Source: a filamentous cyanobacterium CCP2
GTDB taxonomy: Bacteria > Cyanobacteriota > Cyanobacteriia > Elainellales > Elainellaceae
Direction: 5' to 3'
Assembly (NCBI GenBank): GCA_003003615.1
Contig: PVWD01000027.1
Location: 1 to 37,632 of the forward strand
Length of the DNA: 37,632 nucleotides
A program made the position numbers and the translations under genes. Under the pieces are notes generated by a model. The model worked only from the letters and a program-made list of their open reading frames with translations. It searched no databases and had not been told where the DNA came from. This document shows positions 18,200-35,149 of this stretch, in pieces (position 1 is the first letter of the stretch; each line of letters opens with the position of its first letter).

Positions 18200-18324
18200 T
18201 TTCGTATCATTTTTGTGATAGTTTCATAACAGACAAGCAAATTTGTTGCCCCAACGCGGCTGTGCCATTTTACACAGTTGCCGGTTTTCAAAGATTTAGC
18301 AGTTTATCAACGGAGGTTTGTACT

Positions 18325-19284
18325 GTGCCGTATACAATCGATTCGGCTCGTGGCATTTTCCCGAACACGTTGTCGGCTGATGTAGTACCTGCTACAACTG
18401 CTCGGTTCAATCAGCTCAGTGCCGAAGATCAGCTTGCCTGGACTTGGTTTGCTTTCCTTGAAATGGGCAAAACGGTTACAGTTGCTGCTCCAGGAGCTGC
18501 CAGTATGCAGTTTGCCGAAGCAACGCTGAATCAAATCCGCCAGATGTCTTTTCCTGAACAAACTCAGGTGATGTGTGACTTGGCGAATCGAGCTGACACG
18601 CCAATTTGCCGCACCTATGCAACATGGTCTGCAAACATTAAGTTGGGTTTTTGGAATCAGCTTGGAGAATGGATGGAGCAAGGGATCGTCGCTCCAATTC
18701 CCTCTGGCTACCAGCTTTCCGCGAATGCTGCTGCGGTACTGGAAGCCCTGAAAGAGATGGATCAAGGTCAACAAATCACGGTTTTGCGCAACGCTGTAGT
18801 GGATATGGGCTTCGATCCAGATAAGCTCGGCAGCTACGACAGAATTTCTGAACCAGTTGTTGCTCCAAAGGAAGTATCGCAACGGACTCAAGTAACCATT
18901 CAGGGCATCAATAATCCCACGGTGTTGAGCTACATGGACAACATGAATGCTAACGACTTTGAGGCATTAATCAAGCTATTTGTGCCCGATGGAGCGTTGC
19001 AACCCCCTTTCCAAAGACCGATCGTCGGCAAAGATGCCATCGCCCGGTTTTTCCGGGAAGAGTGCCAAAATTTGAAGCTGATGCCAGAACAGGGCGTGTC
19101 TGAGTCAGTCGAGGGCGGCTACACTCAAATCAAGGTGACTGGAAAGGTTCAAACTCCCTGGTTTGGGGCTGCGGTTGGCATGAATATTGCTTGGAGATTT
19201 TTGCTCAACGCTGAGAACAAAATTTTCTTCGTGGCGATCGACCTACTGGCATCTCCCAAGGAGTTGTTAAACCTGGTTCGCTAG
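18325..19284 (+). CDS. ocp: Orange carotenoid protein (OCP)
   Basis: A photoprotective keto-carotenoid protein that quenches phycobilisome energy after blue-green light activation. The start is the GTG at 18325, because GGAGG lies 8 bases upstream and the sequence then matches the family start (PYTIDSARGIFPNTL); an ATG at 18262 would add an unrelated 21 residues. The 319 residues cover the full N-terminal helical domain, a linker two residues longer than in Synechocystis, and the NTF2-like C-terminal domain. Conserved carotenoid and interface residues are present: W110, R155, E246 (equivalent to E244), Y203 and W290 (equivalent to Y201 and W288). Position 44, Tyr in Synechocystis, is Phe. FRP follows, as is usual for the OCP1 type. 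A hairpin after the stop should end transcription before frp. Confidence 0.96.
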   Translation: MPYTIDSARGIFPNTLSADVVPATTARFNQLSAEDQLAWTWFAFLEMGKTVTVAAPGAASMQFAEATLNQIRQMSFPEQTQVMCDLANRADTPICRTYATWSANIKLGFWNQLGEWMEQGIVAPIPSGYQLSANAAAVLEALKEMDQGQQITVLRNAVVDMGFDPDKLGSYDRISEPVVAPKEVSQRTQVTIQGINNPTVLSYMDNMNANDFEALIKLFVPDGALQPPFQRPIVGKDAIARFFREECQNLKLMPEQGVSESVEGGYTQIKVTGKVQTPWFGAAVGMNIAWRFLLNAENKIFFVAIDLLASPKELLNLVR

Positions 19285-19327
19285 CGCAAGCAGTTTCAGG
19301 TATAGCTTAGCCGCAATGAATGGGGTG

Positions 19328-19362
19328 AGCACTCTTTTGCAAAAGGGTGCTTCTCCCTCTTG
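19328..19362 (+). terminator. Hairpin terminator after ocp
   Basis: AGCACTCTTTT and AAAAGGGTGCT form an 11-bp stem (one G-T pair) with a 2-base loop, 44 bp after the ocp stop, followed by a pyrimidine-rich tail. The tail is not a pure T-run, so readthrough into frp is possible. Confidence 0.75.
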
Positions 19363-19455
19363 AAAGACATGAACCAATAAAAAACAATCTTGCACACAAG
19401 TCTTTGAAACTTAGTTTGTCAAGAATTTAGAATTGTCCAGATTTCAGATTTAGTA

Positions 19456-19782
19456 ATGCCAGTGAATGACGTTGATTGGTCTAGAACCGAAAAAGAAATT
19501 GCTCAAGCAGCTTTTGATAAAGCCTACAAGCGAGAAGTTGAGACATTAGTTAGAGACGTTCGAGACAAAGCCAGTACGATCGCAGGATTAGACGACATCT
19601 GGCAATTGAATGACTTTTTGAATGCTCGCAGACATGAAATAGACGGCAAATACGACTATCGATATGCATCCCTAATCTTTGTCTTTGCGGAGTTAGTGAA
19701 AGAAGGATGGCTTCACCTTGACGACCTCAAGGGATTGGATGCAGGCAAGCTCGCCAAGATCTCTGCTCTAACGCGAATGTAG
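19456..19782 (+). CDS. frp: Fluorescence recovery protein (FRP)
   Basis: A 108-residue helical protein that speeds return of active red OCP to the orange form and detaches it from phycobilisomes. The diagnostic segment DDIWQLNDFLNARRHEIDGK matches the family. Residues equivalent to Synechocystis FRP W50, D54 and R60 are W49, D53 and R59; the H53 equivalent is N52. It lies 171 bp after ocp on the same strand. No obvious ribosome site precedes the ATG. Confidence 0.93.
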   Translation: MPVNDVDWSRTEKEIAQAAFDKAYKREVETLVRDVRDKASTIAGLDDIWQLNDFLNARRHEIDGKYDYRYASLIFVFAELVKEGWLHLDDLKGLDAGKLAKISALTRM

Positions 19783-19877
19783 CATCGCAAATGTCATCTT
19801 GTTGATATCAATTCAGCATTGCTCTCGGTTAGCTTATCCTTAAAAGCGTAGATTAAATAACCGATCATTCTGCTCTA

Positions 19878-19910
19878 TTGACTGGGCAGGCAAGATGCCC
19901 ACCCCACAAG
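19878..19910. repeat. Dispersed palindromic repeat C, copy 2 (inverted)
   Basis: Inverted copy of 18016-18048 with 31 of 33 bases identical. It lies between frp and the convergent Rubisco activase gene. Confidence 0.8.
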
Positions 19911-19949
19911 GGTTTCAGGTAATTGAATTTTCATTCCTCAGCATCCGAT

Positions 19950-21299
19950 TTATTGCCCTGGTCGCTGAATAATGTTTTCCATCACGCGCCGTTTTGCCCC
20001 AGGTTCAATTCCAAACAAACGCACGTACTCTCCGACGTGATTGTTAAGGCAAGACTCGACAGCATCGATCGCCTCTGCCTCATTTTGGGCTTGAATTGTC
20101 GCACAACTTTGCCAGGAGCCAGCCCGGAACCGCCGTTGATCCACATGCTCCAAACCAATGCGGTAGCCTTGAACCAGCAACGATCGCACCTGTTGCAGCA
20201 CCTCATCATCCAGACGATGGTTTCCAGAAGGATTCCCCGTGGGGCGATCGGGTTTTGTCTGAGCAGAGTTTGCCTGGGAGGGGGGTGCAGGTAGACGAGA
20301 TGAGCCATTGCCATTGCCAGCCCGATGTTCAGCAGGATGTTCAGCCCGATATCCAGCCCGATGTTCAGCCGAATGCCCAGTAGAGCGGGAAGGAGCACGA
20401 TCGGGAATTGCCTGAGCTTCAGAGATGGCGCGGTTATAGGCAGAGGCCAGCCGCAGTTCATGGAGCCGACCCTGCTCAATCACCATCAGTTCTCCCTCTT
20501 CAATCAGGTGAGACAAATTGAAGTTCGGTTTCTGAAAGTTAACCTTCTCTTTGGCATTCACCAACTTAGAACCCACTTTGTTAAAGCCGATCGACTGAAT
20601 AAAGTTCAGCACTTGCTCATCGTAAATCCGGGAGCGCAACGCCCCAAAAAAGTCGATCGATTGACCATCAAAGTGGTTGACCAGCTTTTCAATATCTGAC
20701 CGCGACAGTCCATCTGCCTCAAAAATTCCGTAGGCAATATTCAGCCGATCGTCCCGGTTTGGCTCCCAGTAGAACTTTTCCATTCGCCCATCGCGCACCA
20801 AAGGGGCATACAGCGTCCCAAAGTCATTTCCCGTCACGATGATCGGCACACGGGGCAACGGTTCATCGTCGTAGCTGCCGGGAAGCTGCACATTCGTCGG
20901 ATTGTCCGCAATGTTCATCAGCGTGGCATTCACCAACTGAGTATTGACGGTATACTGCGTTCCGCCATCAACCCGACCCGCCCCAGCATCAATGTCATTG
21001 ATCATCAACACTGCCATTTTGCCGCGCTTGCGAATGATGTCTGCCGCTTCACGATACCGCAACCGAATTAACCGCGCCGGATCGCCCGCATCCGGACTTT
21101 CCAACTCTCCCGCAGACATGTGAACCGCTTCAATCCCCATCAGGTTAAAAACTAGTTCACACTGAAACGATTTGCCTTCGCCCTTGTGTCCGTGAACTCC
21201 CAGAATCAGCGGTACACGAACATTGTCCAGATCAAGAAAGTTCTTGGTGATGTGGATGGCAAGCTTGTTGAGAAACCGAGGTGCAATGTAAAAAGACAT
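19950..21299 (-). CDS. rca: Rubisco activase with C-terminal RbcS-like (SSUL) domain
   Basis: A 449-residue AAA+ ATPase that remodels inhibited Rubisco. Walker A GHKGEGKS (about 37-44) and Walker B AVLMINDIDAG (about 96-106) are clear, and the AAA+ module runs to about residue 290. A Pro/Gly/His/Arg-rich linker follows (about 300-360) with imperfect AEHRAGYR repeats. From about 363 (LDDEVLQQVRSLLVQGYRIG) comes a small-subunit-like domain of the kind found in CcmM, which targets the activase to carboxysomal Rubisco. Cys399 and Cys417 are 18 residues apart, like the redox-active Cys pair of some SSUL domains. The gene stands alone, away from rbcLS, and converges on frp. Confidence 0.95.
   Translation of the reverse strand: MSFYIAPRFLNKLAIHITKNFLDLDNVRVPLILGVHGHKGEGKSFQCELVFNLMGIEAVHMSAGELESPDAGDPARLIRLRYREAADIIRKRGKMAVLMINDIDAGAGRVDGGTQYTVNTQLVNATLMNIADNPTNVQLPGSYDDEPLPRVPIIVTGNDFGTLYAPLVRDGRMEKFYWEPNRDDRLNIAYGIFEADGLSRSDIEKLVNHFDGQSIDFFGALRSRIYDEQVLNFIQSIGFNKVGSKLVNAKEKVNFQKPNFNLSHLIEEGELMVIEQGRLHELRLASAYNRAISEAQAIPDRAPSRSTGHSAEHRAGYRAEHPAEHRAGNGNGSSRLPAPPSQANSAQTKPDRPTGNPSGNHRLDDEVLQQVRSLLVQGYRIGLEHVDQRRFRAGSWQSCATIQAQNEAEAIDAVESCLNNHVGEYVRLFGIEPGAKRRVMENIIQRPGQ
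20309..20383 (-). repeat. 24-bp tandem repeat in the activase linker
   Basis: Imperfect units of GATGTTCAGCCCGATATCCA type (plus strand) encode the AEHRAGYR-like linker repeat. The frame is kept. Confidence 0.6.
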
Positions 21300-25475: not shown

Positions 25476-25605
25476 TTTTAGGAGGGAGGAAGGGAAACTT
25501 TTTTATCTTTGTCACAAGTTCTATCTTTTGATAGAGAGCAGCATTCCCTTCGTTCGTAACAATCTCCCGTAGAGCCTGGTTGTTAAGGAAATTTTGAAGC
25601 TTGCA

Positions 25606-26808
25606 ATGGTTGTAAAAACACAAATCGCGATCGTGGGTTTTGCGATCTTACTGGGAATAGGCTGCACTGTGCAGAAGGATGCCAATGAGGTCAGCGCAGC
25701 CGAACAGCAAGACGCTATCGCTTCCAGTAATGGTTTAGTTGAATTGACTGAAAACACAGAATACGAAACGATTCGCGTGGTTGAGGTGGCTGGCGGATTA
25801 GAGCACCCCTGGTCATTTGCGTTCCTACCTGACGGGCAAATCCTGGTGACAGAGCGATCGGGACGGCTAAATCTGCTTACCAATGGTGAAGTGACAGAAA
25901 TTACCGGCATTCCTGAACTGCAAAGCCAGGGGCAGGGCGGGCTATTGGAGGTTTCCGTCCATCCCAACTACGAAGAAACCGGCTGGATTTATTTGACCTA
26001 CTCCAAACCCAACGGCAACGGTGAGACAGCTACAGCCCTGGCACGGGGACGATTGGAAGGAACAACGCTGGTTGATGTAGAAGATATTTTCGTGCAAAAC
26101 CGTTACTCTCAGCCCGGACGACACTACGGTTCCCGCCTTGCCTGGACAACAGACGGTAAACTGCTGATGACGATCGGTGATCGAGGGTCAGAACCACCCA
26201 GAGCGCAAGATTTGACCGACCATGCCGGAAGCCTGCTCAGGCTCAACGATGATGGCTCGGTTCCAGAAGACAATCCCTTTGTGAACAACGACGAAGCTTT
26301 AGATGAAATCTACGCCTACGGACTTCGCAACATCCAGGGAATGATTGTTGATCCAGCAACAAACGAAATTTGGGTTACGGATCACGGGCCGCGGGGCGGT
26401 GATGAATTGAACCGAATTGAACCGGGCAATAATTATGGGTGGCCGCTGGTGACGTTGGGGTTGGATTACGGCACTGAAGACCCCTTCCCCGATGCAGTTG
26501 CGCGCCGAATGGAAGGACTGACTGAACCATTTTATGAGTTTCTGCCAACCCACGCTCCATCAGGTCTAGCTCTCATCACGGCCGATCGGTTTCCAGCTTG
26601 GCAAGGAAATCTTTTGGTCGGCGGGCTGCGGAGTGAACGCATTCGTCGAGTCGTGTTTGACGATAGCGAAGTACTCCACGAAGAAGAACTTTTGCTCGGC
26701 AAAATCGGACGAATTCGCGATGTCAGGGAAGCTCCCGACGGAACGATTTATGTTCTTACAGATGAATCCAACGGAGGACTCTATCGGATTGAACCTGGAA
26801 ACGGATGA
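25606..26808 (+). CDS. PQQ-dependent sugar dehydrogenase (GSDH family)
   Basis: A 400-residue secreted beta-propeller of the glucose/sorbosone dehydrogenase family (PF07995), which oxidises aldose sugars with PQQ. The start is the ATG at 25606; a TTG 12 bp upstream is the only extension. An N-terminal hydrophobic segment ends in a Cys (AIVGFAILLGIGC), suggesting a lipoprotein, although the Gly before IGC departs from the usual Leu. Propeller blocks include EHPWSFAFLPDGQILVTER, the catalytic-His region GRHYGSRLAW, GDRGSEPPRAQDLTDHAGSL, and DHGPRGGDELNRIEPGNNYG. Aldose sugar dehydrogenases of the YliI type are the nearest group. PQQ would have to come from outside or another locus. Confidence 0.88.
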   Translation: MVVKTQIAIVGFAILLGIGCTVQKDANEVSAAEQQDAIASSNGLVELTENTEYETIRVVEVAGGLEHPWSFAFLPDGQILVTERSGRLNLLTNGEVTEITGIPELQSQGQGGLLEVSVHPNYEETGWIYLTYSKPNGNGETATALARGRLEGTTLVDVEDIFVQNRYSQPGRHYGSRLAWTTDGKLLMTIGDRGSEPPRAQDLTDHAGSLLRLNDDGSVPEDNPFVNNDEALDEIYAYGLRNIQGMIVDPATNEIWVTDHGPRGGDELNRIEPGNNYGWPLVTLGLDYGTEDPFPDAVARRMEGLTEPFYEFLPTHAPSGLALITADRFPAWQGNLLVGGLRSERIRRVVFDDSEVLHEEELLLGKIGRIRDVREAPDGTIYVLTDESNGGLYRIEPGNG

Positions 26809-26910: not shown

Positions 26911-27732
26911 CTATAGATTTTCTCCAGGCAGATAGCGCGATCGTCTTTGGCGAGAATGGCGGGCAGGTTGGGCGTTTCTGATTTGAAATGTATCGCTAAC
27001 AAACTGTTCTGCATTTGTCCGAGGGCCACGTTCCCCCAGGCTGCGAAGTCCATTTAGATCTAAGTAGCTGAAGACCACTTTGGAAAGAAAGGGCACGAAG
27101 CAAAACAAAAAAGTTTCAACAGTACGATCGAACAAATTCAAACCAGAAGGCCCCAAAATCCAGATGATGGGGTAGCAAATCCAAGTGGCAGTGAAGAAGG
27201 TGGTAAGGCGATCGTAAAATCGTTCTAGTTCAGGGTCTCCTTGCCTCCGGGTAATATCTCGATAGGGGCCCCAAATGATCCATAGAACGACACAGAAAGC
27301 GATCGTGCCGGTGATGTACCAAAAATACCGCACATCAGGAACAGAGGAAAGATCGGCTAACAAGCCCGATGCAATCACAATAACCTGAGTGGCCATGACT
27401 GAAAATATGGTTGTCCAATCTTTGTGCTTTAAGTGATGCATTGCTGTCCAGCCTAATGCCAGCAGCAGCAAGGGCGTAGTGACAATCCAATCAATATAGC
27501 GACCTAAAAAAACAACATGATCATTGAAGGCAATAATCCTGCCAAACTCTATATCCTGTCCTGGCATCACTAAAGATAAATAAGCTAAACCTGACCAAAC
27601 TGGAATAAAAGTTGCAACAAAGTATTCCAATCTAGGCAGTCCGCGTGTGTTTCTACCGATCGCAGCAAAATAAAGTGCCCCGATCGCCATACCAGCAACG
27701 TATAGCCAATGCCAAAAGTATTGCCAATTCAT
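26911..27732 (-). CDS. Microbial rhodopsin, Anabaena sensory rhodopsin/xenorhodopsin type
   Basis: A 273-residue seven-TM retinal protein. Helix C reads RYIDWIVTTPLLLLALGWTA, giving D81 (counterion/acceptor), T85 and A92 at the BR D85, T89 and D96 positions, a D-T-A motif. K218 in FLSKVVFSYLDL binds retinal. P214 stands where BR has Asp212, and E36 is kept, both hallmarks of the Anabaena sensory rhodopsin group. Similarity to that protein is strong throughout (LYVAGMAIGAL, FIPVWSGLAY, GPSGLNLF). The tail of about 40 residues is Arg-rich. No soluble transducer gene is nearby. The protein may be a photosensor or, as in related xenorhodopsins, an inward proton pump. Confidence 0.95.
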   Translation of the reverse strand: MNWQYFWHWLYVAGMAIGALYFAAIGRNTRGLPRLEYFVATFIPVWSGLAYLSLVMPGQDIEFGRIIAFNDHVVFLGRYIDWIVTTPLLLLALGWTAMHHLKHKDWTTIFSVMATQVIVIASGLLADLSSVPDVRYFWYITGTIAFCVVLWIIWGPYRDITRRQGDPELERFYDRLTTFFTATWICYPIIWILGPSGLNLFDRTVETFLFCFVPFLSKVVFSYLDLNGLRSLGERGPRTNAEQFVSDTFQIRNAQPARHSRQRRSRYLPGENL

Positions 27733-27904: not shown

Positions 27905-27938
27905 CAGAAAAAAGGGGCAGACAGATTCCTTTGCCCCC
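27905..27938 (-). terminator. Terminator after the substrate-binding protein gene
   Basis: On the minus strand GGGGCA and TGCCCC pair across a 12-base loop, followed directly by TTTTTT. It lies about 90 bp past the stop at 28028 and insulates the rhodopsin gene. Confidence 0.8.
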
Positions 27939-28027: not shown

Positions 28028-29119
28028 CTATGCACCTTCCTTTGCAGCAGTGATAAATTGTGGATCGATCACATTAGAAAGATCGGGAATCGTTTCAATT
28101 TGCTCCTGATCCTGCATGAATTGCGCCATGCTTTCAAAGGAATTCCCCATGTAAAGATCACTGCTTGCGTTTGCCAGCATTTCTACATTTGTATCCAGAT
28201 CAGGGAGTTGGATGCCTTCAAGCTGCTCATCCAATTCTTCTGGCGTAATTCCCAACTCATTGGCCATAATTTCTAACCCCTCTTGCCGATCGGTTTCCAG
28301 AAAATCGATCGCCCTGGCAATTCCTTGAACAAAGGCAGTTACCGCTTGCGGGTTCGCTTCTATGAAATCGGTTCTGAAGCTGTAGAAATCGGCAATTGCA
28401 GTGGGCATTTCCTTCGTGCTGTAAATGGTGCGCCCATCCGGTTGGACTTCATTTGCCTTGTCGCTAAACGGTGAATAGGAATAGGCAATTTCAACATTAC
28501 CTGCCTGATACGCTGCTGCTGAAGCATCTGGAGGCGTGTTGAGCAACTCTACATCCTCGGCGGTCAGTCCGGCTTCAGCCAGAACTTGCAACACAAAAAA
28601 GTGCCCCACTCCGCCCAACTCTACGGCGATTTGCTTCCCCCTGAAATCCTCAATACTTTGAATGCTATTCCGTGCCAGAATCACATCCCCTCCAGAGGAC
28701 ACGTCTTCCACCATCACCACCCGGAAATCAACTCCTTGTGCTGCCAGCAAAACCACCTCAGAGGTAACGGGTGTCAGGGCATCGAGTTGACCAGCCGTAA
28801 AAGAGGGGAACGCTTGGGCGACACTTTGAAACGTTCTGATGTCCAGATCCAGCCCTAATTCCCTGAAAAAGCCCTTCTCCTTGGCAATGAACAGGGGCGT
28901 ATTGCCAATCCATGTGGTCGTCCCAATGGAAGCAGAAATCACATCAGAACTGGCTGTGGCTTCGCTAGATGTTGAAGAAGCGGTTGTACTTGTCCCTGTA
29001 GATTGACAGCCATGCAAAGTGACCCCCGCCGCTGCTCCAGTGAGCATCCAAAGCGTTTGGCGACGTGTCCATGTTCCTAGAAAACGGTTGCGCGAACGAT
29101 CGAACTTTGGCGTATTCAT
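28028..29119 (-). CDS. ABC transporter substrate-binding lipoprotein (NMT1/SsuA type)
   Basis: A 363-residue periplasmic binding protein. The start at 29119 (MNTPKFDRSRN) follows a strong AGGGGGA ribosome site; an upstream ATG (29158) would add 13 residues. The leader has a twin-arginine-like TRRQTLWML followed by a hydrophobic stretch and lipobox LHGC, so export as a lipoprotein, perhaps by Tat, is likely. The mature part shows the NMT1/THI5 fold: SIGTTTWIGNTPLFIAKEKG, GFFRELGLDLDIRTF, and the DFRGKQIAVELGG hinge. Relatives bind nitrate, sulfonates, pyrimidines or ureides. It lies downstream of the creatininase gene on the same strand, about 260 bp away, and shares the region with another such protein and an ABC ATPase. 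Confidence 0.87.
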   Translation of the reverse strand: MNTPKFDRSRNRFLGTWTRRQTLWMLTGAAAGVTLHGCQSTGTSTTASSTSSEATASSDVISASIGTTTWIGNTPLFIAKEKGFFRELGLDLDIRTFQSVAQAFPSFTAGQLDALTPVTSEVVLLAAQGVDFRVVMVEDVSSGGDVILARNSIQSIEDFRGKQIAVELGGVGHFFVLQVLAEAGLTAEDVELLNTPPDASAAAYQAGNVEIAYSYSPFSDKANEVQPDGRTIYSTKEMPTAIADFYSFRTDFIEANPQAVTAFVQGIARAIDFLETDRQEGLEIMANELGITPEELDEQLEGIQLPDLDTNVEMLANASSDLYMGNSFESMAQFMQDQEQIETIPDLSNVIDPQFITAAKEGA

Positions 29120-29380
29120 TGTGGTAGTTCCCCCTACTTTCGGTAAGTAATTTGTCAAAATGAAACGAGCAATCGAACACAGTTAAATAAACACAGTCGA
29201 ACGAACACATGACCCAGTAGCGATCGTTGCAAAGACAATCAGCCTCACTTTGGTGCGATTGTGACTTGGGCAACCGATCGACCTGATGAATGATGAAAAA
29301 TTAAAACTCAAGGATGCAGATTGCGTTACCATAACTGACTCATCCGCTCACTGCCCCCTTCATTAAACGTGGCACCCTTT

Positions 29381-30154
29381 TCATCCCCCATCATTCAGCT
29401 TCTCAGACATAAACTCATGTACTACCGCCTTCGCAATACTTTCTGTTACTTGCTGGGCAATGACGGCTCCCTTCTCAGCACTGGCCGCCTTTGCAGACGA
29501 CAGCACCCCAGAAGACGGAACCCAGTGAATACACGGCGGATAGAGATCATACGGTGGAAAAACCGCCGCGTCGTCAACAGGAATGCGATCGAGATGCACC
29601 AAATTGGGATAATAATGCAGCATGAGCGATGTTTCAATGACTGCTGCATGTTCCAGGGCAAATCCAGGAAATCCATCTGGAAAAACACGACTCAAGGTTT
29701 CTTCCGTGCAAAAATCCCAGTATTCCAAACGCATAATTCTCAGCCTGCTAGATGGGCCAATCTCCCGCAGAGCCAAGTCAATGCCTTCCGTTAGAAACCA
29801 CTGGTTTTCATAATGCCCATCCACCACCACAAGATGCTTCACTCCATGTCGGGCAAACTCCCGAATCACATCTCGTGTGATATGGCTGAGGCTTTGCCCA
29901 TCTAAACTTGTTGTTCCGGGAAAGTATTGTCCCCCCCCCGATTTGGGTTGAGATTTATACCCGTAATTAATTACAGGAGCAACCAGACCGTTCACCTGCT
30001 CAGCCACCGACTGGGCGATCGCCATACTCAACAGGGTATCCGTTCCAAGCGGCAGGTGTGGCCCATGCTGTTCTAAGGCACCACAGGGAAGAAATAAGAC
30101 CAGCCGTTCATCGCGCAAACGCTCTTGATAGGTCGTCCAACTGAGAGAACTCAT
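29381..30154 (-). CDS. Creatininase (creatinine amidohydrolase)
   Basis: A 257-residue metal-dependent cyclic amidohydrolase interconverting creatinine and creatine. The start at 30154 (MSSLSWTTYQERL) is preferred; an ATG at 30181 adds nine residues. Metal ligands are visible: E28 and H30 in GALEQHGPH, D39 in LGTDT, H114 and E116 in DGHYEN. The match to Pseudomonas creatininase is unusually close for the family: YGYKSQPKSGGGQYFPGTTS, then SLDG, IREFARHG, GIDLALRE, FPPYD and LSSAK. The familiar NGHYEN is DGHYEN here. True creatininase activity is plausible, but another cyclic guanidino or amide substrate is possible. It is divergent from the SDR gene and lies near transport genes. Confidence 0.88.
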   Translation of the reverse strand: MSSLSWTTYQERLRDERLVLFLPCGALEQHGPHLPLGTDTLLSMAIAQSVAEQVNGLVAPVINYGYKSQPKSGGGQYFPGTTSLDGQSLSHITRDVIREFARHGVKHLVVVDGHYENQWFLTEGIDLALREIGPSSRLRIMRLEYWDFCTEETLSRVFPDGFPGFALEHAAVIETSLMLHYYPNLVHLDRIPVDDAAVFPPYDLYPPCIHWVPSSGVLSSAKAASAEKGAVIAQQVTESIAKAVVHEFMSEKLNDGG

Positions 30155-30325
30155 TAGTACTGAATTTATGATCAAACTCACGATAAATTCCAGTCCTCTC
30201 CTGCCATTGGTAGATGCTCTTCACTCTGATATCTTTTTCTGCGTTTGCAAAGTAGTATCAGAGAATACGAATCGGTCTTATACTCTTCCTGCATTGTATA
30301 TCAAAGGAAAGAGTGTGAGGTTTCA

Positions 30326-31084
30326 ATGGGCCGGTTAGATAATAAAGTAGCGTTAATTACAGGGGTTGGGTCGGGAATTGGGAAAGCAGCAGCCCTGTTA
30401 TTCGCTCAGGCGGGAGCCGTTGTGTTTGGGGTCGATCGCGATGAAGCGGCTGGGCAAACCCTAACCTCCATGCTCTCCAGCCAAACGTTTCGTTTTTTCA
30501 AAGCTGATTTGTCCACCGAAGCAAGCTGTATCCAAACAGTTCAGCAATGCTGTGCGGCCTATGGTCAAATTGATGTGCTTTATAACAATGCAGGGATTTC
30601 TACCGTAGAGCCATTTACTCAAACGGACGCGCTTTCCCTCGATCGCATGCTCTCAGTGAATTTCAAGTCCGTCTTTTATCTTTGTCAGCAGGTGATTCCT
30701 AAAATGCAGCACCAGGGAGGCGGTGTGATTATTAATACGGCCTCAGAGTTGGCGATCGTGGCCCAACCCCTTTATGCAGCCTATTGCGCCAGTAAAGGAG
30801 CCGTTTTGTCCTTGACTCGTGCCTTAGCGTTGGAATATGCCCAGGATAATATTCGGATTAACGCCCTGTGTCCCGGGCCCATCGACACTCCCATGCTGCA
30901 ACAGGAATTTGATCAATCTGATGATCCGATACAATCTAGAGCCGCAGGTATTGATACGATGCCGATCGGGCGACTGGGAAAACCAGAGGAAATTGCTCAG
31001 GTGGCTCTCTTCCTAGCCAGTGATGCCCCATCTCTAATGCAGGGTGCTTCCATCGTTGTTGACGGCGCGAAAACCATTCTTTAG
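30326..31084 (+). CDS. Short-chain dehydrogenase/reductase (classical SDR)
   Basis: A 252-residue NAD(P)-dependent oxidoreductase. The start at 30326 (MGRLDNKVALITG) has GAGG just upstream; the longer frame to 30245 is not family-like. It has the cofactor motif TGVGSGIG (about 13-20), NNAG, the catalytic Ser in NTASE and YxxxK in YCASK, and the classical PG motif in LCPGPIDTPM. An Asp in the VDRDE segment after the second strand suggests NAD preference. It is followed 43 bp later by a substrate-binding protein gene on the same strand, so the two are probably one operon, divergent from creatininase. Substrate unknown. Confidence 0.9.
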   Translation: MGRLDNKVALITGVGSGIGKAAALLFAQAGAVVFGVDRDEAAGQTLTSMLSSQTFRFFKADLSTEASCIQTVQQCCAAYGQIDVLYNNAGISTVEPFTQTDALSLDRMLSVNFKSVFYLCQQVIPKMQHQGGGVIINTASELAIVAQPLYAAYCASKGAVLSLTRALALEYAQDNIRINALCPGPIDTPMLQQEFDQSDDPIQSRAAGIDTMPIGRLGKPEEIAQVALFLASDAPSLMQGASIVVDGAKTIL

Positions 31085-31127
31085 GCTGTGTTCCAGTTTT
31101 CTTGTATCCATGAGGAAGTGAGTACCC

Positions 31128-32129
31128 ATGTTGAAATTTTTGATTCGGCGATCGGTTCGGTTTCTGGCTCTAAGTCTGATCACGTTTGGCTTACTTGTTG
31201 CCTGTAATCCCCAGTCCAGCACCACTCAAACTTCCAACCAACCCTTAGCAGTTGGCTCATCACCCTGGCCAGGGTTTGCAGGGCACTATGTTGCGGTCGC
31301 TCAAGATTTCTTCAGCGAAGAAGGAATTACGGTGACGGATAATTACTTTCAGGTTGCCACCGATGTCAACACTGCACTCCTCGCAGGACGGCTCGATCTG
31401 GCTCTTACAGGCGGCCCAGATATGGTGGTTATGGCCAGCCAAGATCCATCCTTGCGGTTCATTATGCTCACCGACTATTCCGATGGAGCAGACGGAATTT
31501 TGGCCCGAAATGTCAACAGTCCAGAGGACTTAAGAGGAAAAAACGTTGCCTGGGAAAATTTACCGCTGCAAGCCTTGTTGTTACAGCGATATTTGGAAAG
31601 TGGCGGCTTGACGCAGGCAGATATTAATCTGCAAATTATTACGGCCGCCGAAGCAGCAACGGCCTTTGCCTCTCAAAATATTGATGTGGCCATTACCTAT
31701 GAACCCTGGCTCACCACCGCAGCCAGCCAAGGGCAAGGACAAGTTATTTTTTCTTCTAAGGACACAAATATCATTCCGGTGGGCGTTGTGGCCAAAGAGT
31801 CGGTAATTGCAGACCGAAGAGAAGACATTCTGGCATTTATGCGGGCACTCGATCAGGGCGTTGCGTTTGTGCGAGACAACCCAGAGGAGGCAAATCCGAT
31901 CGTGGCAGAAAAGCTTGGAGTTTCACCAGAAGAAGTTCCGGAGCAGCTTAGCACTGTTCGCTTGTTTGATATCGAAGACAATAAAACGATCGGCTTTAAC
32001 CCAGATGATCCGCTCAACGTGATGGATAGTCTGGAGTTTGCGGCGGAAACGAGCGAGGCGATCGGCTTAATTGCAAGTCCGGTAGATGCAGCCAATTTAT
32101 ACGACGATTCCTTGGTGAATGCGCTTTAG
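31128..32129 (+). CDS. ABC transporter substrate-binding lipoprotein (NMT1/SsuA type), second
   Basis: A 333-residue periplasmic binding protein. The leader (IRRSVRFLALSLITFGLLVAC) has a clear lipobox LVAC, giving an acylated Cys at about 26. The mature part follows the NMT1/THI5 pattern: SSPWPGFAGHYVAVAQDFFS, ALLAGRLDLALTGGPDMVV, SPEDLRGKNVAWE, and NIDVAITYEPWLTTAA. It is similar in fold but clearly divergent from the protein at 28028-29119, so the two likely bind different ligands. It follows the SDR gene in the same direction. No ATPase or permease adjoins it; the ATPase at 34316-35149 may serve it. Confidence 0.87.
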   Translation: MLKFLIRRSVRFLALSLITFGLLVACNPQSSTTQTSNQPLAVGSSPWPGFAGHYVAVAQDFFSEEGITVTDNYFQVATDVNTALLAGRLDLALTGGPDMVVMASQDPSLRFIMLTDYSDGADGILARNVNSPEDLRGKNVAWENLPLQALLLQRYLESGGLTQADINLQIITAAEAATAFASQNIDVAITYEPWLTTAASQGQGQVIFSSKDTNIIPVGVVAKESVIADRREDILAFMRALDQGVAFVRDNPEEANPIVAEKLGVSPEEVPEQLSTVRLFDIEDNKTIGFNPDDPLNVMDSLEFAAETSEAIGLIASPVDAANLYDDSLVNAL

Positions 32130-32142
32130 GAATGTATGCCCC

Positions 32143-32880
32143 CTAATCAGAGTGAGCCGTCCTCGCTTCACCGTATAATATGACTCCCATTGCCCCTAAA
32201 ACGAGCAGCGTAAACGTGCAGACGATCGCAGCTAACCAGGAGTTGTCTAACCCAGACAGGGCAACGGAAATATCGGGTTGGTGGGTAAAATTTGCGGCGG
32301 ACATGCCAGTGTAGTGCATCGACAGTACGGCTCCTCCCATGACGCAGGCTGTAATCATCTTCAGCCCAATTTGCTGGGAAAATTTTTCTTCCCGAAACAA
32401 AACGGCGAGGGTCAATGCGGCTAAGGAAACAATTACCGCCACCAAAACAGACAAAGCAAACAAACCAGGGTTATAACCAATGTTCGCAGGCATTCGCATT
32501 GCTGCCATCCCAGAATAATGCATCATGGCAATGCCAACCCCCATGGACAGGCTACCACCCACCAAAGCAAACGTACTGACATGGGGACGACCCACAATGA
32601 ATAAAGCTTGCAGGGATGCCAAAATCGCTAGCAGCAAGGAAAGCAAAACGATCGGCAAGTCATAAGTGATATATAGAGGAATGGAGAAGGCCAGCATTGC
32701 CACAAAATGCATTGCCCAAATCCCAGTTCCCATGGCGATCGCCCCACCCATTAACCAAAAGCGGCGATTGGTCTTCCGGGCCACCATCAGCCGATTTGCC
32801 AGCTCCAACGCCACGTAAGAAGCAGCGATCGCAATTAATGCAGAAACAATAACCAGTATTAGATTATAAGTAATTGTCAT
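32143..32880 (-). CDS. MHYT-domain seven-TM sensor protein, stand-alone
   Basis: A 245-residue integral membrane protein with seven predicted TM helices. It has three MHYT-type motifs: MHFVAM (about 57-62), MHYSGM (about 120) and MHYTGM (about 192). The Met and His residues are thought to coordinate copper and to sense O2, CO or NO. Most MHYT proteins are fused to GGDEF/EAL or kinase domains; this one ends after the last TM helix with a short tail, so it must signal through a partner or act as a metal or gas sensor alone. It converges on the second substrate-binding protein gene with a 13-bp gap. Confidence 0.9.
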   Translation of the reverse strand: MTITYNLILVIVSALIAIAASYVALELANRLMVARKTNRRFWLMGGAIAMGTGIWAMHFVAMLAFSIPLYITYDLPIVLLSLLLAILASLQALFIVGRPHVSTFALVGGSLSMGVGIAMMHYSGMAAMRMPANIGYNPGLFALSVLVAVIVSLAALTLAVLFREEKFSQQIGLKMITACVMGGAVLSMHYTGMSAANFTHQPDISVALSGLDNSWLAAIVCTFTLLVLGAMGVILYGEARTAHSD

Positions 32881-33010
32881 CTTTACTAAGGTTAATACTC
32901 AACTTACAGAACATACATACAACTGGTACACCTTACGAAGGAAAACACGACCAGAAGGAAAATGAAGATAAAAATTCTGTAAATTTCGCGCAAAAGTGAT
33001 CCGCACCCTT

Positions 33011-33058
33011 GCACTTAATAGGAATAAAAGTTATGCACTTTTTATGCACTTTGTGCAA
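33011..33058. promoter_or_regulatory. Direct GCACTT repeats upstream of the MHYT gene
   Basis: GCACTT occurs at 33011, 33035 and 33046, the last two 11 bp apart, followed by TTTGTGC. The pair begins 155 bp upstream of the MHYT start. A very similar array lies upstream of the ABC ATPase gene at 35305. Confidence 0.45.
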
Positions 33059-33225
33059 ATTGAGAAACTGGTGAGATGAGTCTGGGTGCATCCCACTTTT
33101 GCATTTCCGTGACAAATATGGCAACGGATGGAAAGGTTAGGACAATCTCAGGTGACGGAAACCCAAAACGGATAGGTTTGGCATTACGGAACTGTCTTAA
33201 CGTGCTTGCGTAGGGCTATATCTCC

Positions 33226-33252
33226 CTGGCAGGCAAGATGCCTGCGCTACGG
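33226..33252. repeat. Dispersed palindromic repeat A, copy 2
   Basis: Exact inverted copy of 14290-14316, with the core GCAGGCAAGATGCCTGC. Confidence 0.8.
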
Positions 33253-33296
33253 CAATCGATCCATTTGCATAAAATGGGATGCTCCCAATGAGCCTC

Positions 33297-33327
33297 CTGT
33301 GAGATGGGTATCTTGCCCGTCCTGTCA
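33297..33327. repeat. Diverged dispersed repeat overlapping the ureohydrolase stop
   Basis: GATGGGTATCTTGCCCGTCC resembles the C-type repeats and runs into the stop codon of the ureohydrolase gene, so the repeat may supply the last codon. Confidence 0.5.
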
Positions 33328-34284
33328 CTCAGCAACCTGGGATTTTTGCCGATTCCACGCCACCATTGACATAAACTCATACCCCACTTGGGCAGCCAGT
33401 TGAGCCGTAATCTGAGCATGGTCATGGGCAGGCAAAACCTCCACAACATCTGCCCCCACCCAGTTCAGCCCAGCACAGGCCCGCAGGTAAGCCAATCCCT
33501 GGAAGCTGGTCGGCCCACCCACTTCCGGAGTTCCGGTTCCGGGGGCAAACGCCGGATCAAAGAAATCGACATCAAAGGTGAGGAACGCCTTGGCATCTCC
33601 TACCCGCTCCCGCACCATTGCCCCAACTTCGATCGGCGGATGGGTGAGCAGTTCCGTTGTGGAAAGTGCCAAAAAGCCAAATTGCTCCGAGAGTTGGGCA
33701 TCCCCTTCGTCATAAACCGGCCCCCGCATTCCCAACTGAATCGATCGCTCTGGCAAAAGTAACCCTTCTTCAACGGCGCGGCGAAACGGGGTTCCATGGG
33801 TATACTGATGACCAAAATACCCATCCCACAAATCGCAATGGGCATCAAAGTGAACCAGTGCCAAGGGGCCATGTACAGCCGCCAGGGCCCGCAGTTCTGC
33901 CAGGGTGATGCTATGGTCGCCGCCAATGCCCAGCGGAATCACCCCAGCTTCTGCGATCGGCTGCACCGTTTGTGTGATGGCAGTGTAGCTGTCTTGAATG
34001 TAGCCCGGAACAACTGGAGCATCCCCATAATCCACACAGGACAGGGTTTCAAACACATTCACCTTCAGTTCACGGTTGTAGGGTCGCAGCATGGCAGATG
34101 CACTCCGCACTGACTCTGGCCCAAACCGGGCCCCCACCTTGTAGGTCACTCCCGTATCAAAGGGCAACCCCACAACGGCAATGTTTACATCATCGGTGGT
34201 GGGAATATGCGGCAGACGGGCAAAGGTACGAACTCCGGTAAACCGAGGAAATTCTAGCGCGTTAACGGGTTGATAGTGTGGCAC
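33325..34284 (-). CDS. Ureohydrolase, agmatinase/guanidinobutyrase type
   Basis: A 319-residue binuclear metal hydrolase that releases urea from a guanidino compound. Metal ligands are complete: H124 in GGDHS, D147, H149 and D151 in DAHCD, D238 and D240 in FDVDFFD. The segment PFDTGVTYKVGARFGPESVR and the THGTPFRRA loop (about 162-170) fit the agmatinase/guanidinobutyrase/guanidinopropionase branch rather than arginase. It lacks the long N-terminal extension of the cyanobacterial guanidine hydrolase GdmH. It lies 31 bp after the ABC ATPase gene, probably in the same operon, which points to an imported guanidino substrate. Specificity cannot be fixed from sequence. Confidence 0.9.
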   Translation of the reverse strand: MPHYQPVNALEFPRFTGVRTFARLPHIPTTDDVNIAVVGLPFDTGVTYKVGARFGPESVRSASAMLRPYNRELKVNVFETLSCVDYGDAPVVPGYIQDSYTAITQTVQPIAEAGVIPLGIGGDHSITLAELRALAAVHGPLALVHFDAHCDLWDGYFGHQYTHGTPFRRAVEEGLLLPERSIQLGMRGPVYDEGDAQLSEQFGFLALSTTELLTHPPIEVGAMVRERVGDAKAFLTFDVDFFDPAFAPGTGTPEVGGPTSFQGLAYLRACAGLNWVGADVVEVLPAHDHAQITAQLAAQVGYEFMSMVAWNRQKSQVAE

Positions 34285-34315
34285 GATGAATCAAAAGAGG
34301 GGATAAATGACGGGG

Positions 34316-35149
34316 CTACTGTCCTCGCAGAGCATGGAGAACCTGGCGTTTAATATCAATAAATTCGGGCGACAATTTGATCTCTAAGTCTCGCTGTTCC
34401 GGTAGCGCGATCGGCACTTCTAGTTTTAACTGTCCCGGACGACTACTCATGACATAGAGCCGTTGAGACAGAAAGATTGCCTCTTCCACATCATGGGTGA
34501 TCATCAGTACCGTTGTATGGGTTTCTGCCCACAAATTGAGCAAAAATTGCTGCATTTGCTCTTTGGTTTGAGCATCCAATGCCCCGAACGGTTCATCCAT
34601 TAGCAGCACTTCTGGCTCATTGGCCAGCGCACGGGCGATCGCCACTCGTTGCTTCATTCCTCCAGACAATTGCTTTGGGTAAGCCTGGGCAAATTGCGTC
34701 AGCCCCACCACATCTAGATAATAGGAAACCGTCGATCGCTGCTGAACCTTAGACAGCTTACGCAGTTGTAGCCCAAAGGCAATATTTTCAGCGACGGTCA
34801 GCCAGGGATATAGCGTATAGCCTTGAAACACCATCCCCCGATCGGCTCCTGGCCCCAAAACCCGCTCACCCTCAACTAGAACCTCTCCAGAGGAAGGCTG
34901 TTCCAGTCCAGCAATAATATTGAGCAGCGTCGATTTACCACACCCTGAAGCCCCAACCAAACAGACAAACTCTCTGGAGTGCAGTTGCAAATGAATATTG
35001 TCTAGTACCTGCAATGATTTTCCCTGAGCAGGAAAGGATTTAAATAGACCTCGAACCTCCAGCTTGGGATGAGCGGTTTGAACAGAAGCGTTCTTAGCCC
35101 GCTGCATCGTCAAATCGGTCACGGGGTTTTGCGATCGAGAATTCACCAT
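34316..35149 (-). CDS. ABC transporter ATPase, SsuB/TauB/NrtD type
   Basis: A 277-residue ATP-binding subunit. It has Walker A GASGCGKST (about 62-70), Q-loop MVFQGYTLYPW, signature LSGGMKQR, Walker B VLLMDEPFGALD and H-loop TH in MITHDVEEA. The YPWLTV segment is typical of the nitrate/sulfonate/taurine group, which works with NMT1-type binding proteins such as the two in this window. The first 25 residues are poorly conserved; an ATG at 35107 is an alternative start. No permease gene is adjacent. It is probably cotranscribed with the ureohydrolase gene. Confidence 0.92.
   Translation of the reverse strand: MVNSRSQNPVTDLTMQRAKNASVQTAHPKLEVRGLFKSFPAQGKSLQVLDNIHLQLHSREFVCLVGASGCGKSTLLNIIAGLEQPSSGEVLVEGERVLGPGADRGMVFQGYTLYPWLTVAENIAFGLQLRKLSKVQQRSTVSYYLDVVGLTQFAQAYPKQLSGGMKQRVAIARALANEPEVLLMDEPFGALDAQTKEQMQQFLLNLWAETHTTVLMITHDVEEAIFLSQRLYVMSSRPGQLKLEVPIALPEQRDLEIKLSPEFIDIKRQVLHALRGQ

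Follow-up and report, generated by a model that had tools for sequence, protein, structure and literature searches.

The DNA analysed here, called the window, is one whole contig of 37,632 nucleotides from the filamentous cyanobacterium CCP2, whose genome assembly (6.95 Mb in 528 contigs) is 96.9% complete. It carries a gene for a xenorhodopsin related to Anabaena sensory rhodopsin (ASR), the only gene of the Bac_rhodopsin family (PF01036) in the whole genome (Table 1). The reading frame is not a chance one, because its product matches PF01036 with 182 bits in the Pfam search (E 1.8e-53), the cut-off being 24.6.

The rhodopsin gene is tail to tail with a gene for a glucose/sorbosone dehydrogenase, and a substrate-binding-protein gene lies upstream on the same strand at a distance of 295 bases. 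The interval holds a hairpin followed by a T run, which suggests that the two genes are transcribed separately. The hairpin folds with -11.8 kcal/mol at a z of only -0.5, i.e. no better than shuffled sequences, and is missing from a consensus terminator scan whose loop limit, 8, is smaller than its loop. No conserved promoter block appeared in an alignment of the upstream regions among close relatives, and Rfam gave no match within the window. A neighbouring gene as substitute transducer was considered and rejected, since none of the immediate neighbours in the window recurs at the rhodopsins of close relatives. The neighbours that do recur in other genomes, an AI-2E-family transporter, DUF389 and a P-type ATPase, are not found near the window gene. 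Given the hairpin and the lack of recurrent immediate neighbours, the rhodopsin was therefore treated as a solo gene.

The stretch that starts with the upstream gene encodes a creatininase (TIGR04448, above cut-off), a guanidinopropionase/guanidinobutyrase-like ureohydrolase, two NMT1-type substrate-binding proteins and an ABC ATPase, and judged by its gene products it looks like a cluster for uptake and breakdown of guanidino compounds or creatinine. Elsewhere in the window the genes for orange carotenoid protein and fluorescence recovery protein, a known photoprotection pair, and a Rubisco-activase-like reading frame adjoin each other.

Table 1. Positions in the window of the rhodopsin gene, of codons discussed in the text and of neighbouring features
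Feature	Position	Strand	Remarks
ASR-type xenorhodopsin gene	26911..27732	(-)	273 aa; ATG start, no internal stop, seven predicted transmembrane helices
E36 codon	27625..27627	(-)	aligns with ASR E36, PoXeR E35; invariant in alignment
D81 codon, counterion	27490..27492	(-)	ASR D75, PoXeR D74, BR D85; invariant in alignment
A92 codon	27457..27459	(-)	ASR S86, BR D96 position
Q116 codon, helix D	27385..27387	(-)	PoXeR D108
P214 codon, xenorhodopsin Asp-to-Pro mark	27091..27093	(-)	ASR P206, BR D212 position
K218 codon, retinal Schiff-base lysine	27079..27081	(-)	from alignment
D225 codon, candidate cytoplasmic proton acceptor	27058..27060	(-)	ASR D217, PoXeR D216
Arg-rich cytoplasmic C-terminal tail	26914..27030	(-)	39 aa, 8 Arg, no Lys; predicted helix 240-253
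Terminator-like hairpin	27907..27938	(-)	GGGGGCA/TGCCCC, then six T; read by eye; between substrate-binding-protein gene and rhodopsin gene
Glucose/sorbosone dehydrogenase gene	25594-26808	(+)	
Substrate-binding-protein gene	28028-29158	(-)	
Creatininase, ureohydrolase and transport genes	28028-35149		
Orange carotenoid protein, fluorescence recovery protein and Rubisco-activase-like genes	18262-21299		
Rubisco-activase-like ORF	19950-21299	(-)	resemblance judged by eye

Family, fold and integrity of the protein

Ranked by sequence among PDB entries, ASR of Nostoc/Anabaena sp. PCC 7120 (1xio) comes first, over approximately the full length (E 1.3e-83), and BcXeR of Bacillus coahuilensis next (E ~1e-51). 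The AlphaFold model, built from a 69-sequence alignment, has a mean pLDDT of 90.6 and shows seven long helices, then a short extra helix at residues 240-253 and a low-confidence end. Its closest folds in the PDB are again ASR (TM 0.97, 53% identity) and BcXeR (TM 0.96, 40%), with TM taken by target length. In the tree the window protein, ASR and 59 other cyanobacterial rows form one clade of 61 rows with support 100/99, while PoXeR of Parvularcula oceani and the Bacillus-type relatives fall outside it. The nearest relatives found are those of genomes G121 (75%) and G152 (73%) and of Chlorogloeopsis fritschii PCC 6912 (69%); earlier catalogues of cyanobacterial xenorhodopsins comprised 15 genes (PMC7541481) and 35 (PMC11528372).

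Xenorhodopsins are recognised by an Asp-to-Pro change in helix G, at the position of BR D212 (PMC3198991). This mark is present as P214, invariant across the 69-sequence alignment, together with the other characters of the Xenorhodopsin clade (Ugalde 2011), namely the helix-G Schiff-base lysine, K218, and grouping with ASR homologues in the tree. By every one of these sequence criteria the protein is a xenorhodopsin, and its place in the tree, its tail and its helix D mark it as ASR-type; the further character of ASR, a gene for the transducer ASRT in the same operon, is absent. The first-pass annotation had called it a homologue of ASR and xenorhodopsins and had singled out E36, D81, T85, A92 and P214: the Pfam match, the PDB ranking and the phylogeny it had proposed all bear this out, and its numbering is right, with the residues aligned to their ASR counterparts (Table 1; T85 to ASR T79).

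The likeness to ASR extends over ~53-56% identity, the fold, the Asp counterion, the Pro at the BR D212 position, E36, D225, the helix-D Gln and the Arg-rich C-terminal tail. The differences are Ala92 for ASR S86, Asn227 for ASR His219, a longer B-C loop and, unlike in ASR, no ASRT gene adjacent or anywhere in the genome. The other cyanobacterial xenorhodopsins have the clade and motif of the window protein, mostly also lack an adjacent ASRT, and differ from it by ordinary divergence only.

It is very improbable that the gene is a decaying relic devoid of function. Several relatives do carry in-frame stops or frameshifts that disrupt the gene (L005/L045, L052, L058, L089 and L101), but the window copy is intact, keeps all functional residues and, against its closest relative, has a pN/pS of 0.16 in the membrane part and 0.39 in the tail. 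The broken copies themselves suggest frequent loss of xenorhodopsins, sequencing errors being possible.

Retinal supply, ASRT and residue 92

The genome was searched family by family, as the first-pass annotation had proposed for the transducer and a retinal-forming oxygenase. ASRT (PF07100) was found neither in the window, where that annotation had already noted its absence, nor anywhere in the 96.9% complete genome, the positive control, Thermotoga maritima, being detected; the ~3% that is not assembled could still harbour an ASRT gene. The sole carotenoid oxygenase (G000:C472:4638-6023) has apocarotenoid-15,15'-oxygenase (2biw) as its nearest counterpart (E 2.8e-201), and this enzyme, encoded elsewhere in the genome, is probably the source of retinal. 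No Blh-type enzyme was found in the genome, a weak absence given that no positive control was detected.

Among 390 genomes sampled across the class, 44 have an ASR-clade gene, whole or as a fragment, and 17 have ASRT. Both occur together in nine of the 44 carriers, the other 35 being without ASRT, and ASRT is present in eight of the ~346 remaining genomes; hence ASRT is strongly associated with ASR-clade genes (odds ratio ~11, Fisher p 1.6e-5, computed for 391 genomes, an immaterial excess of one). In all eight cases of a full-length rhodopsin with ASRT in this sample, including the closest relative, G121, the two genes are not adjacent. In a second, named set, ASRT was present in seven of 35 whole genomes searched, and only in L049, L050, L053, L055 and L067, which come from both halves of the clade, does it immediately follow a tailed xenorhodopsin gene in the same orientation; no ASRT was found in the genomes of ASR's own close relatives (L062, L063, L065, L078 and L083). 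Adjacency has changed at least four times on the tree. Because so many carriers are without ASRT, adjacency is limited to five loci and ASR's close relatives do without it, a lone ASR-type gene is normal, and a missing adjacent ASRT is usual among ASR-clade genes. The 2011 survey regarded the ASRT pairing as peculiar to PCC 7120, with no other xenorhodopsin so paired (PMC3198991). That claim is no longer tenable, but the survey remains right that ASRT also occurs where there is no ASR-clade rhodopsin.

The protein might be a sensor whose ASRT-like partner is encoded elsewhere in the genome, having diverged too far for the search model or having been lost from the assembly. The association across the class and the unlinked ASRT of eight ASR carriers would agree with such a partner. 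We consider it improbable, however, since the ASRT copies of relatives, 63-82% identical, are readily found whereas this nearly complete genome gave no match, and since most carriers lack ASRT altogether.

Residue 92 is variable on the tree. Ala is the majority residue among the 61 rows of the cyanobacterial clade (38 Ala, 20 Ser, 3 Thr), the position has changed at least 11 times, and across the tree no association was found between the residue and the presence of ASRT; outside the clade BcXeR has Ala and PoXeR Leu. Judged by the alignment, A92 is uninformative. Thus neither the missing neighbour nor A92, which the first-pass annotation took to set the protein apart or to point to a pump, keeps that meaning.

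Helix D, the C-terminal tail and proton transport

PoXeR and BcXeR, which are inward proton pumps, have E36, D81, P214, K218 and D225 in common with the window protein; at position 85 BcXeR has Ser, unlike the window protein, and at position 92 the window Ala is found in BcXeR and not in PoXeR. As a light-driven inward pump, the protein would pass the Schiff-base proton to D225/E36 and be reprotonated from outside, thereby lowering the proton motive force or acidifying the cytoplasm as a signal. Such a function would agree with the match of P214, E36, D81, D225 and S222 to the PoXeR/BcXeR pathway, with the Ala shared with BcXeR, with a fold match to BcXeR almost equal to that to ASR, and with the labelling of xenorhodopsins as an inward-pump clade (PMC7541481). 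The acceptor Asp of the pumps (PoXeR D216) and its Glu partner (E35) are both present, as D225 and E36. However, D225, E36 and P214 are undecisive because they are common to ASR and the pumps, and ASR, with the same residues, shows no transport (PMC5118547).

Two features overlooked in the first-pass annotation, Gln116 and the Arg-rich tail, bear on the choice. Alignment column 116 holds Gln in all 61 members of the cyanobacterial clade, ASR included, whereas the 17 remaining rows, PoXeR among them, all have Asp; BcXeR also has Asp. Replacing any of four PoXeR carboxylates lowered pumping, and D108, changed as D108N/E, is among them (PMC5118547), so the window protein has Gln where PoXeR needs a helix-D carboxylate. 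The weight of Gln116 is limited: ASR D217E transports inward while retaining the helix-D Gln, and Gln116 therefore does not exclude pumping.

The long Arg-rich tail, a character of ASR-type proteins, is found in ASR and in nearly all members of the clade, with one short-tailed subclade and L088 as exceptions, and is missing from PoXeR, BcXeR and the Bacillus-type proteins; the proven pumps are thus tailless. The tail is constrained in lineages that have ASRT as well as in those that lack it: over 17 pairs its pN/pS is ~0.38, compared with 0.10 in the membrane part, and in some of these pairs synonymous changes approach saturation. An amphipathic tail helix was considered and dropped, as its hydrophobic moment is not above that of shuffled sequences (p 0.62). 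According to a review, the proton moves to the cytoplasm in truncated ASR and to the outside in full-length ASR, and FTIR at 170 K shows no difference between the two forms (PMC3267196).

The split at column 116 and the tail track phylogeny, the cyanobacterial clade against the others, and may reflect ancestry instead of function. From sequence, both shift the odds to the sensor side without proving function, and inward pumping appears unlikely for the window protein.

Some relatives depart from the common pattern. The short-tailed xenorhodopsins L069:986-1708 and L074:986-1708 (Cyanobacteria bacterium FACHB-63) have by nature, at the position of ASR D217 (window 225), the Glu with which the engineered ASR D217E transports inward, and are candidate natural inward pumps. 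In the short-tailed subclade L080, L082, L084 and L094 a gene for a cation-transporting P-type ATPase lies 58-175 bases upstream in opposite orientation and a response-regulator gene lies nearby downstream, unlike at most tailed genes. The xenorhodopsin L100:8019-8705 (Scytonema tolypothrichoides VB-61278) comes from a cyanobacterium and yet falls outside the ASR clade; it has the pump-like helix-D Asp and is tailless.

Proposed light sensing without ASRT

The reading we favour, with some reserve, is that the window protein works as a photochromic sensor of the ASR type, with signalling independent of ASRT, and not as an efficient inward proton pump, because the Arg-rich tail, the helix-D Gln116 and the position in the tree together lie on the ASR side. 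Of the two functions offered by the first-pass annotation, orphan sensor or inward pump, the sensor has thus gained ground and the pump is the less favoured. We infer from sequence that the protein would be photochromic, would not pump and would signal by the following route. Retinal would be held with D81 as single counterion, Pro214 replacing the second one; after photoisomerisation the Schiff-base proton could shift toward the cytoplasmic E36/D225 network; and light would be sensed photochromically, as proposed for ASR. The signal may then leave, free of ASRT, through the conserved Arg-rich tail or, alternatively, via a soluble partner. Against sensing it counts that, in the literature surveyed, sensory output has been directly demonstrated for none of these proteins, that D225, E36 and the predicted single-counterion pocket are common to the proven inward pumps, and that, by analogy, Ala at position 92 would be compatible with pumping, as in BcXeR.

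Arguments about the cellular role of ASR have rested mainly on the operon that it shares with ASRT. The census changes this picture, since it adds five more loci with a rhodopsin-ASRT pair, spread over both halves of the clade, and suggests that ASR-type proteins mostly work without ASRT. It is conceivable, though we hold it only tentatively, that cyanobacterial ASR-type rhodopsins signal mainly alone via the Arg-rich tail, for instance through nucleic-acid binding or a widespread partner, with ASRT as an optional modulator and the window protein as a naturally transducer-free case. Most carriers are without ASRT, yet the rhodopsin and its tail are constrained, so that an ASRT-independent role would be testable in a strain such as this one. 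Moreover, whether helix D carries Asp or Gln, combined with the presence or absence of the tail, could provide a simple predictor of pumping versus non-pumping xenorhodopsins.
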